Virus record (IMG/VR): IMGVR_UViG_3300020188_000031
Span: 1-32,291 of that record
Length of the DNA: 32,291 nt
Reading direction: 5' to 3' (one strand)
DNA from: a virus
In this document: piece after piece, positions 1,573-30,513 of the stretch
How the letters are laid out: each line of letters begins with the position of its first letter
How positions within the stretch are numbered: position 1 is the first letter of the stretch
The notes under the pieces: model-generated
What the model was told of the DNA's origin: nothing
Databases searched by the model: none
Seen by the model: only the letters and a program-made list of their open reading frames with translations
Program-made: the position numbers and the translations under genes

Positions 1573-1648
1573 AACGATAACTATATCTGGTGCAGATGGA
1601 AGTATTCAAGTATGTACCGTATGTCCGGATACAATAGTGTGTGTTTAA
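1508..1648 (+). CDS. Short secreted Cys-rich peptide (46 aa)
   Basis: GTG at 1508 is preceded by AAGGAA (1497-1502), a strong ribosome site 5-6 nt away. The product is 46 residues with a textbook signal peptide: 'MKEKLL' charged start, a hydrophobic core 'TIICLSLTLSLA', then 'AQA' before C21, which suits signal peptidase I cleavage after Ala20. A lipoprotein reading with C21 as the lipidated residue is less likely because Gln is at -2. The mature ~26-residue part has C21, C36, C39 and C45 and ends in 'CPDTIVCV', which suggests one or two disulfides in the periplasm. It overlaps the 116-aa gene by 65 nt in a different frame and ends at the 5' edge of the terminator stem. Function is unknown; a periplasmic modulator of lysis, superinfection or host envelope is a guess. 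Confidence 0.72.
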   Translation: MKEKLLTIICLSLTLSLAQACETITISGADGSIQVCTVCPDTIVCV

Positions 1649-1675
1649 GATAGGGGCGAAAGCCCCTTATCTTTT
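1647..1675 (+). terminator. Rho-independent terminator of the + strand recombination operon
   Basis: The stem AAGATAGGGGC (1647-1657) closes over a GAAA tetraloop (1658-1661) with GCCCC-TTATCTT (1662-1673). It has 11 pairs with a single bulged T, and is followed by TTTT. The C(GAAA)G loop and GC-rich core make it strong on the + strand. In the opposite direction the same hairpin lies 15 nt beyond the pqqA stop, so it may also end the - strand transcript, although the U-tract on that side is poor. It sits exactly between the two convergent transcription units. Confidence 0.88.
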
Positions 1676-1690
1676 ATACCTAAACAATAA

Positions 1691-1762
1691 TTACTTATTG
1701 CAAACGTACATGGTTACTTCGAAACCAAAACGCATTTCAGTAGCTGCTGGTTTTGTCCACAT
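1691..1762 (-). CDS. pqqA: PqqA: precursor peptide of pyrroloquinoline quinone (auxiliary metabolic gene)
   Basis: A 23-residue peptide that starts '[11 protein letters not shown]' and continues '[12 protein letters not shown]'. This is the PqqA pattern over its whole length: the N-terminal MWxKP, and the Glu-Val-Thr-x-Tyr core with Glu15 and Tyr19. In known PqqA these are the two residues joined by the radical-SAM enzyme PqqE (with the PqqD chaperone) and turned into PQQ after proteolysis and the PqqB and PqqC steps. A consensus AAGGAG (1769-1774) lies 6 nt before the ATG. Length and the spacing of the cross-linked pair are normal; Cys21 is less usual. No pqqB-E gene is nearby, so host enzymes must process it. 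It is the last gene of the - strand, with its own candidate promoter and tandem palindromes upstream and a terminator hairpin after it. A chance open frame with this match is very unlikely. Confidence 0.93.
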
Positions 1763-1790
1763 AATGTTCTCCTTAGTTAGTTGAATACCC

Positions 1791-1819
1791 ATTATGAACC
1801 TGTATTACATGTATTACAG
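1791..1819 (-). promoter_or_regulatory. Candidate promoter of pqqA
   Basis: On the - strand CATAAT (1791-1796, 5 of 6 to TATAAT) lies 17 bp from CTGTAA (1814-1819, a weak -35, 3 of 6). Transcription would start around 1784, leaving a leader of about 20 nt that contains the AAGGAG site. The poor -35 overlaps the tandem palindromes, which would fit a regulated promoter. This is pattern matching only. Confidence 0.42.
1801..1818. repeat. Two tandem 9-bp palindromes upstream of pqqA (possible operator)
   Basis: TGTATTACA occurs twice with no gap (1801-1809 and 1810-1818). Each copy is itself a palindrome with a central T (TGTA-T-TACA). The pair lies 39 bp upstream of the pqqA start codon and covers the spacer and -35 region of the candidate promoter. 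Back-to-back dyads of this kind are typical binding sites for dimeric regulators, phage- or host-encoded. No protein can be assigned from the sequence. Confidence 0.5.
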
Positions 1820-1828
1820 TGCTAAAAA

Positions 1829-2002
1829 CTAGGATATACGCCTAAGGCTTTTCATGAGAGTCGCTGTTACACGATCGGTATTTTTTGATACCTTACCATA
1901 GGTTACATTGAGATCGTGCAATACAGAGCGATTGTGGAGGTCGTTTTTAGTGAGTGACTGTTGGTTTTTCTTTAACGATGTATAAATCCATACCTTCGGC
2001 AT
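1829..2002 (-). CDS. Possible overlapping small gene, 57 codons
   Basis: An open frame from ATG 2002 to TAG 1829 starts inside the last 56 nt of the 73-aa gene in another frame. It covers most of the otherwise empty stretch between that gene and pqqA. Its product would be basic and polar, with segments 'SLTKNDLHNRSVLHDLNV' and 'NTDRVTATLMKSLRRIS' that look like ordinary coding composition. Against it: no Shine-Dalgarno precedes the ATG, so it may instead be reached by a frameshift from the 73-aa frame, be translated by coupling, or be a decayed extension. The same DNA also holds nested inverted repeats. It is listed as tentative. Confidence 0.35.
   Translation of the reverse strand: MPKVWIYTSLKKNQQSLTKNDLHNRSVLHDLNVTYGKVSKNTDRVTATLMKSLRRIS
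1870..1918 (-). other. Nested inverted repeats between the 73-aa gene and pqqA
   Basis: CACGATC (1870-1876) and GATCGTG (1912-1918) form a 7-bp outer stem enclosing a 5-bp hairpin GGTAT/ATACC (1877-1881 with 1888-1892) and a weak 3-bp pair ACC/GGT (1895-1897 with 1901-1903). Folded as RNA this would be a small three-way junction, and it could protect or process the transcript ahead of pqqA. It lies inside the tentative 57-codon frame, so the structure could be incidental. At 49 nt it is too short for a tRNA. Confidence 0.3.
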
Positions 2003-3337: not shown

Positions 3338-3729
3338 TTCGTTAAGCCCTTAGACTTTTCCCAACTGCGCAACCCGGATAAACCTAGTAATGCTATTGTT
3401 AATTCCATCATCACATCAGTATGTAATACAGGTAATACTATATGAATGCCAAGTAATGCACACACCCACTGAGCCACTGGGGCGATAACAAACACCCAAG
3501 CAAAACCAAAACCAGCGACCCAGCCAAGGAAAGGACGCCAACCAGCAACCCAAATAGAGCGATGGCTAGCTTCAATCTTATTTGTCTCAGCCTGAGCAAG
3601 ATTAATCTTCGATGCATTATCGATGAGAGCTTTCTCAATATCAGCTTTTGCTTTAGCTTTTGCATTGTTGTCAGGAATAACTTTATCAAGTACATCCCCT
3701 ATTATACCTACAATTGGCGCCCAAATCAT
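3334..3729 (-). CDS. Holin, three-transmembrane (GTA_holin_3TM-like) family
   Basis: A 131-residue protein. The N-terminal half is a charged helix ('AKAKADIEKAL...KINLAQAETNKIEASH') followed by 'SIWVAGWRPFLGWVAGFGFAW', a hydrophobic segment, a second one ('APVAQWVCALLGIHIVLPVL') and a C-terminal 'ELTIALLGLSGLRSWEKSKG'. This is the layout of the 3TM holin family first noted in gene-transfer agents and phages; it opens the inner membrane to let the endolysin out. I chose ATG 3729 because it overlaps the upstream stop as ATGA and has GGAGAG 4 nt before it; an in-frame ATG at 3741 lacks a ribosome site. The M15 peptidase follows directly. Confidence 0.85.
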   Translation of the reverse strand: MIWAPIVGIIGDVLDKVIPDNNAKAKAKADIEKALIDNASKINLAQAETNKIEASHRSIWVAGWRPFLGWVAGFGFAWVFVIAPVAQWVCALLGIHIVLPVLHTDVMMELTIALLGLSGLRSWEKSKGLTK

Positions 3730-29844: not shown

Positions 29845-30064
29845 TGCTTTTCTCCTTAATGTATTTCATTTTACCTTGGTAACACGCTCCACACATCCAT
29901 CTGCGACTATTGCCTGAGACTGCTACCTTCCACTTACCGTCCACTGTCTTTCTATGGCGATTGCAAGAACTGCAAAACTTACTATCACTTTCAAGAACAG
30001 CGTCAATGTAACGTGTTCTATCAGGGCGCATATTCGTATATATGTACGACTGACTGCCCTCCAT
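29828..30064 (-). CDS. Small zinc-finger protein
   Basis: A product of ~78 residues (83 if GTG 30079 is the start) with two CxxC pairs, C36-x2-C39 and C63-x2-C66 (numbered from GTG), spaced by 23 residues. This is a zinc-ribbon-like layout: 'KFCSSCNRHRKTVDGKWKVA' and 'SRRWMCGACYQGKMKY'. ATG 30064 has GGAG 9 nt upstream and is my choice. It overlaps the end of the RusA gene and the start of the SSB-like gene. The probable function is nucleic-acid binding near recombination or replication. Confidence 0.7.
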   Translation of the reverse strand: MEGSQSYIYTNMRPDRTRYIDAVLESDSKFCSSCNRHRKTVDGKWKVAVSGNSRRWMCGACYQGKMKYIKEKSNGSEL

Positions 30065-30383
30065 CGACGAATTCTCCACGAGCTATTTCAATAAACTCGA
30101 TCTGTGAGTCATCATCATACATCCCAGCTTTCATTAGAGCATCCAGTATTGCTTTCAAGGTATTGTCTAAATCAAACTTTCTTTTGCTTCGAGGATGGAT
30201 CATGATACTCATTGCCACTAACTTGTCACCGAATCTAATACTACCAGACTCATTGACAATTTTTTTTACTGCATCTGCAAACTCGACGCCCTCCTTACTA
30301 ATGTATCGTCTCTTACCATTAGCGCGCCAGTATGTATTCACAGATGGTGGATACGGTAATGTCAGTTTAACTGTCGGTGTCAT
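30021..30383 (-). CDS. rusA: RusA-family Holliday junction resolvase, 120 aa
   Basis: A complete RusA-type endonuclease: 'LPYPPSVNTYWRANGKRRYI' at the N-terminus, then 'RKFDLDNTLKAILDAL' with D71 and D73 and Lys77, and 'AGMYDDDSQI' with the third acidic cluster D90-D92. These residues form the metal-dependent site that cuts four-way junctions. In phages it resolves branched replication or recombination intermediates before packaging, which fits the exonuclease/annealing system at the left of the window. The length equals that of E. coli RusA (120 aa). Confidence 0.93.
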   Translation of the reverse strand: MTPTVKLTLPYPPSVNTYWRANGKRRYISKEGVEFADAVKKIVNESGSIRFGDKLVAMSIMIHPRSKRKFDLDNTLKAILDALMKAGMYDDDSQIEFIEIARGEFVDGGQSVVHIYEYAP

Positions 30384-30513
30384 TCTCTGCGTACTTCAAT
30401 ACCGCATTATTTATAATTAATGCTTTGGGTATTCCTAATTCTTTTTTTAATTTATCTAACGCTTGTACAGTGTCTGGAGTCAAGCGCACTAAGAATGGTT
30501 TTAGATCACTCAT
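30367..30513 (-). CDS. Ribbon-helix-helix (CopG/Arc-like) protein, 48 aa
   Basis: ATG 30513 with GGAG 6 nt upstream. The product 'MSDLKPFLVRLTPDTVQALD' continues 'KLKKELGIPKALIINNAVLK'. A beta strand ('FLVRLTP') followed by two helices with the turn at 'LGIPK' is the ribbon-helix-helix pattern. Such dimeric proteins bind palindromic operators, usually as repressors. It overlaps the AT-hook gene and the RusA gene. Its target may be a phage promoter; the tandem palindromes before pqqA are one possibility, without evidence. Confidence 0.75.
   Translation of the reverse strand: MSDLKPFLVRLTPDTVQALDKLKKELGIPKALIINNAVLKYAENDTDS

Follow-up and report, generated by a model that had tools for sequence, protein, structure and literature searches.

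Single phage genes that carry their own promoter and terminator and occupy many genome positions are known as morons, while tandem short palindromic or repeated boxes, such as the met boxes of MetJ and the heptads of the omega repressors, serve as sites for dimers of ribbon-helix-helix (RHH) proteins. A phage-encoded PqqA has already been reported as an auxiliary metabolic gene in Lake Baikal VP_266 (PMC7678222, in part), and the LuxR-type regulator AgmR/ErbR activates the PQQ genes in Pseudomonas (PMC12997753, in part). Within open-access PMC text, searches on pqqA promoters, binding sites and palindromes returned only work on Pseudomonas and Hyphomicrobium. A term search found 'pqq' absent from the main text of the papers on MEP301, MEP401/402 and Venkman, and in the Melnitz paper PQQ occurs a single time, as an ingredient of the medium.

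The window (the whole 32,291-nt stretch of DNA analysed here) derives from an IMG/VR virus record. Its closest phage record is OM43 phage MEP301, with 74% identity across ~5 kb of structural genes, the best among phage records. The window has a pqqA gene preceded by a PQQ box at host spacing and by a tandem repeat that is associated with pqqA in phages (Table 1).

Table 1. Positions of the features discussed; coordinates are those of the window unless a locus is named.
Feature	Position	Strand	Remarks
Terminator hairpin	1647..1673	possibly two-way	3' of pqqA
pqqA	1691..1762	-	23-aa PQQ precursor peptide with E-x3-Y pair; translation and family matches
Shine-Dalgarno AGGAG	1769..1773	-	similar in nearly all relatives listed
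-10 element CATAAT	1791..1796	-	same place in relatives; no fitting -35
Tandem dyad TGTATTACA x2 (TGTAATACA x2 on pqqA strand), proposed operator	1801..1818		~-34 to -17
PQQ box CTCATGAAAAGCCTTAG	1842..1858	-	2 mismatches to CTMATGANNNTCATKAG; centre ~-66
Same-strand ORF, 73 aa	1947..2168	-	5' of pqqA, 184-nt gap
RHH protein, 48 aa	30367..30513	-	beside RusA (30021-30383); phrog_3887
Candidate RNA leader, upstream of pqqA	L044 811-849, L092 3033-3071, L124 5177-5214, L231, others	+ for L044, L092, L124	

The phage pqqA gene and its surroundings

The ORF at 1762-1691 is a genuine PqqA gene, with the E-x3-Y pair and with matches above the curated cut-off to PF08042 (E 6.3e-11) and TIGR02107 (E 5.8e-12). 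The peptide was located by tblastn in 12 phage records, including Venkman, P19250A, MEP301, MEP401, MEP402 and the Melnitz group; the first five of these (L004-L008) have no gene annotated at pqqA. Two of the 12 records are named Acinetobacter phage. The one that was opened, Acinetobacter phage MD-2021a (L010, CAKLQF020000010.1), has ppk, pqqA and the adjoining pqqB and pqqC, and probably represents a bacterial contig. For a broader set of phage loci, a degenerate-pattern search of IMG/VR gave at least 120 stretches and the neighbouring phosphoesterase gave 80; 173 pqqA ORFs were read from these, with 114 distinct upstreams after de-duplication. Many different gene neighbourhoods contain phage pqqA, which follows a capsid-like gene in some cases and the phosphoesterase in others. 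In L104, L105, L109, L119, L057, L089 and others it lies 3' of a gene ending ..SFGWSDPLGMWGSPGA or similar; the gene with this ending, which precedes pqqA in many phages, we take to be capsid-like.

The hairpin at 1647-1673 was scored on the + strand only by the terminator search, and has a folding z of -3.4 on the minus strand. Upstream of pqqA, family searches with the 73-aa ORF (1947-2168) returned nothing above a cut-off. The minus-strand region 5' of the PQQ box, 1859-1946, starts near CACTAAAAACGACC, which is common to L159 and L026, and may be structured.

A candidate promoter with CATAAT as its -10 had been proposed in front of pqqA by a sequence-only reading of the window. The -10 stands as placed, but no -35 hexamer fits: a sigma-70 consensus scan (at least 9 of 12 bases, 16-18 spacing) found no promoter at the pqqA site; its only minus-strand hit, at 1609-1580, lies elsewhere. 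The absence of a -35 fits activator dependence. An alternative -10, TGTAAT inside the repeat, was rejected, as relatives with the T form of the repeat lose TGTAAT while CATAAT stays.

Many pqqA leaders fold better than mononucleotide shuffles, with z below -1.5 in 35/46 phage and 58/79 host leaders; the hairpins are short, differ in sequence and immediately follow the presumed start. One candidate structured leader (CTCAAG-NNRGA-CYTG..CTC-TCYNN-YGATCTG) lies between promoter and pqqA in 11 phages and 5 host MAGs, and its 6-bp helix is 96.9% paired, with 21 cells changed on both sides vs. 6.1 when shuffled. The leader model also matches upstream of pqqA in OM43 LSUCC0665 (44 bits), a sequence that was not used in building the model and that matches no Rfam family at its cut-off. 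The candidate leader was not found in the window, in which an Rfam search gave no gathering-level match. Freshwater-2 RNA was considered for the leader of other phages and discarded (14.4-14.6 bits vs. a cut-off of 49.9; no match in 18 records). Matches to the ROSE_3 RNA thermometer in L078 (4506-4572, 51.7 bits, cut-off 43) and, more weakly, in L049 (797-858, 28.8 bits) are directly 5' of a gene, presumably one for a small heat-shock protein.

A host PQQ box and its phage form

The upstreams of host pqqA genes (128 ORFs, mostly from Methylophilaceae contigs) share a palindrome, cTCATGAwwwTCATkAG, located ~59 nt before a -10-like hexamer and often followed by TTCATGA 23 nt further on. The pattern CTMATGANNNTCATKAG is exact in 49 of 60 Methylophilaceae genomes (1/60 for a reversed-pattern control), with 1-5 exact places per genome where present. 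Of thirty box places, each retrieved from a different genome, 27 lie within 260 nt of pqqA, 1 has pqqB instead and 2 have neither gene. The only two box places at ≤1 mismatch in OM43 LSUCC0665 are before pqqA and pqqB. The same search returned nothing in one of four other genomes, and the remaining three additionally had places within genes or ahead of other genes.

Allowing ≤3 mismatches within 200 nt upstream, the box occurs in 89/109 distinct host upstreams (4.8 expected) and 37/114 distinct phage upstreams (5.6 expected), and the phage form is looser (TTTCATGGTTTTACTGATG, 36 nt before the -10). The distance from box to -10 peaks at 59 (40/109) and 36 (23/109) in hosts and at 36 (30/114) in phages, with ~2.4 expected per distance; the host peaks overall are 59, 36, 50 and 60. 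We define a host-type PQQ-box promoter as CTMATGANNNTCATKAG upstream of pqqA with [CA]ATG[AG] 59-60 or 36-37 nt before the -10. The window has both the box and the spacing, as the [C]ATGA of its box (1858-1842) starts 60 nt before CATAAT, a host distance. Chance would produce roughly one match with 2 mismatches in each window (1.03); the case for the window box rests on its position and on relatives, several of which have boxes with 3-5 mismatches (25/40 at ≤3). Closer to the promoter, CCTAGTTTTTAGCACTG was considered as a further PQQ box of the window and dismissed by eye as having too many mismatches.

Activator sites near -66 and -42 are typical of class I and class II activators, respectively. 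CATAAT together with an upstream box at host spacing supports the earlier proposal that pqqA is separate from the late operon and has a promoter region of its own. A host regulator, which had also been suggested, is likely, although its site would be CTCATGAAAAGCCTTAG at 1858-1842 and not TGTATTACA. Three OM43 genomes encode 2 GerE-domain (LuxR-type) proteins each, and such proteins are a lead only as regulators acting on the box.

The tandem repeat beside pqqA

The window reads TGTATTACATGTATTACA at 1801-1818, with tandem TGTAATACATGTAATACA on the minus strand (1818-1801), and the two adjacent copies described in the sequence-only reading are indeed exact head-to-tail repeats of TGTATTACA (1801-1809 and 1810-1818). 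The description of each copy as a perfect dyad holds for the arms (4-1-4) but not for the centre, an odd base in each copy; both copies plus one flanking base per side form a palindrome with 12-nt arms, 92% complementary. CATAAT (1796-1791, minus strand) begins 4 nt downstream of the repeat, which overlaps the -35/spacer as had been claimed. The tandem repeat is real and beyond chance: when the window was simulated 60 times with a second-order Markov model, neither the pair nor any tandemly duplicated 9-mer 4-1-4 dyad arose (0/60 for each). At ≤3 mismatches the tandem pattern occurs in the window at 1801-1818 and 3422-3439 only, and single near-matches are not enriched there (22 observed vs. 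17.8 expected).

Searching IMG/VR for exact matches to TGTAWTACATGTAWTACA returned 90 stretches, 89 of which were re-read. Forty of the 89 tandem places (17 distinct at 90%) have a pqqA gene no more than 59 nt away, with 20 of the sites upstream (site start 43-59 nt before the ATG) and 20 downstream (2-13 nt past the stop); the remaining 49 are elsewhere, many resembling by eye a single repeated coding stretch. Among distinct phage loci, single TGTAWTACA is 44-fold denser around pqqA (20/28.6 kb vs. 14/887 kb). Most pqqA-bearing phages are without the repeat. Close relatives of the window retain the tandem pair, and the dyad centre base is T or A while the arms are constant, as expected for a dyad-binding protein.

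In L169, L065 and the clade of the window, the upstream repeat is between the PQQ box and the -10, and in L169 it fits exactly in the box-to-CATAAT interval. L390, L396 and L397 have the element as a perfect palindrome, placed between the promoter and the Shine-Dalgarno sequence, and in L152 and L157 the repeat is 3' of the -10, one base off. Downstream copies number none (L008), one (L137) or two (L064, L382), a variation that also fits slippage. Read on the pqqA strand, most upstream repeats have the T,T form and most downstream repeats the A,A form, with few independent lineages.

The idea that TGTATTACA is a host site, to be recognised by searching host genomes, did not survive that search: the exact pair is present in 0/120 Methylophilaceae genomes, and no exact single TGTAWTACA was found among those listed of the 128 host pqqA upstreams. 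The repeat is thus phage-specific, not a host operator, and a protein acting on it would probably be phage-coded. This distribution indicates that the tandem repeat is a phage element tied to pqqA and common to several different phages of methylotrophs.

Proposed control of the phage gene and its known counterparts

The explanation that we favour, by a narrow balance of probability, is that pqqA forms an autonomous cassette that obeys the PQQ control of the host and whose promoter has gained a phage operator. Phage pqqA would be a self-contained transcription unit (host-type promoter, gene and terminator), and its promoter, lacking a -35, would be activated by a host protein on the PQQ box at 1858-1842, as before host pqqA and pqqB. 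During infection, phage pqqA would be expressed under the conditions in which the host PQQ genes are, and the phage could benefit from additional precursor peptide that would supply the PqqB-E enzymes of the host and its PQQ-dependent methanol dehydrogenase. Between box and -10, the two TGTATTACA copies may be a two-dimer operator that keeps the promoter off at some stage, as RNA polymerase would be obstructed by a protein bound at -34 to -17; the copies found downstream could serve as a roadblock. Speaking against the operator model, the 20 of 40 pqqA-linked repeats that are just past the stop codon are unexpected for an operator that blocks a promoter. A broader proposal, which we regard as possible but on balance doubtful, is that in several Methylophilaceae phage lineages one and the same tandem operator, exclusive to phages, independently came to lie next to a host PQQ promoter that had been captured, before or after pqqA, such that one phage regulator would override the host PQQ switch in infection.

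The RHH protein at 30367-30513 had been put forward as the binder of the repeat, and it could occupy the tandem dyads side by side, like MetJ or the omega repressors. It belongs to the RHH fold family (PF12651, E 5e-5, over the cut-off), tandem 9-bp dyads suit RHH dimers, and the dyads recur at a fixed period (9, two copies). However, the presence of the gene does not track that of the site: homologues are present in 6/16 records with the exact site at pqqA vs. 7/13 without, they are absent from 62-kb and 26-kb records that carry the site, and no tandem pair (≤3 mismatches) precedes the RHH gene itself in the window. As many of the records are fragments, these counts weaken the idea rather than exclude it, and we consider it unlikely. 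There is similarly little probability that the repeat works through nucleic-acid structure, as a hairpin at the 5' or 3' end that stabilises or terminates the short pqqA mRNA, like other hairpins of these leaders. While both host and phage leaders often fold better than shuffles, and L390, L396 and L397 have the perfect palindrome between promoter and Shine-Dalgarno sequence, the repeat precedes the -10 in the window and its clade and is hence outside the RNA, the window leader does not fold (z -0.2), and 37 of the 40 copies linked to pqqA have a direct A,A or T,T form, mismatched as a hairpin.

The presence of repeats on either side of pqqA (20 upstream, 20 downstream) and the many gene neighbourhoods of this gene would also suit a cassette border or recombination site, with pqqA cassettes moving among phages at TGTAWTACA-rich edges and hence flanked by the repeat. 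This appears improbable given that the exact pair is on both sides in 0/40 loci, that no insertion duplication was seen, and that the repeat fits the box-to--10 spacing in the window clade and L169. It is very improbable that pqqA is only read through from upstream minus-strand genes, with the promoter a mere decoration; a same-strand ORF does end 184 nt upstream in the window and a consensus -35 is absent, but the box and its spacing to the -10 are kept in phages and hosts, and the longest ORF within 450 nt upstream of pqqA faces the opposite way in 42/104 distinct phage loci, which precludes read-through from that ORF into pqqA there.

With host control and an added phage operator as the favoured explanation, an unannotated 23-aa phage gene becomes a testable case of a host regulatory site borrowed along with a metabolic gene, and CTMATGANNNTCATKAG becomes a candidate box of the host PQQ regulon in methylotrophs, a group in which little is known of regulation. 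Lake Baikal VP_266, like the window, represents a Methylophilaceae phage encoding the PqqA precursor; the consulted part of that report names the gene and mentions neither promoter nor operator (PMC7678222). AgmR/ErbR, as described in the consulted part of its report, resembles the regulator proposed here in being a dedicated activator of PQQ synthesis genes, though in another organism, Pseudomonas (PMC12997753). The window repeat is like the MetJ and omega sites in having tandem boxes, with a unit of 9 bp rather than 8 or 7. Like a moron, the window pqqA is one gene between its own promoter and a terminator, as judged from sequence only; unlike morons, its cassette has a host regulon box.
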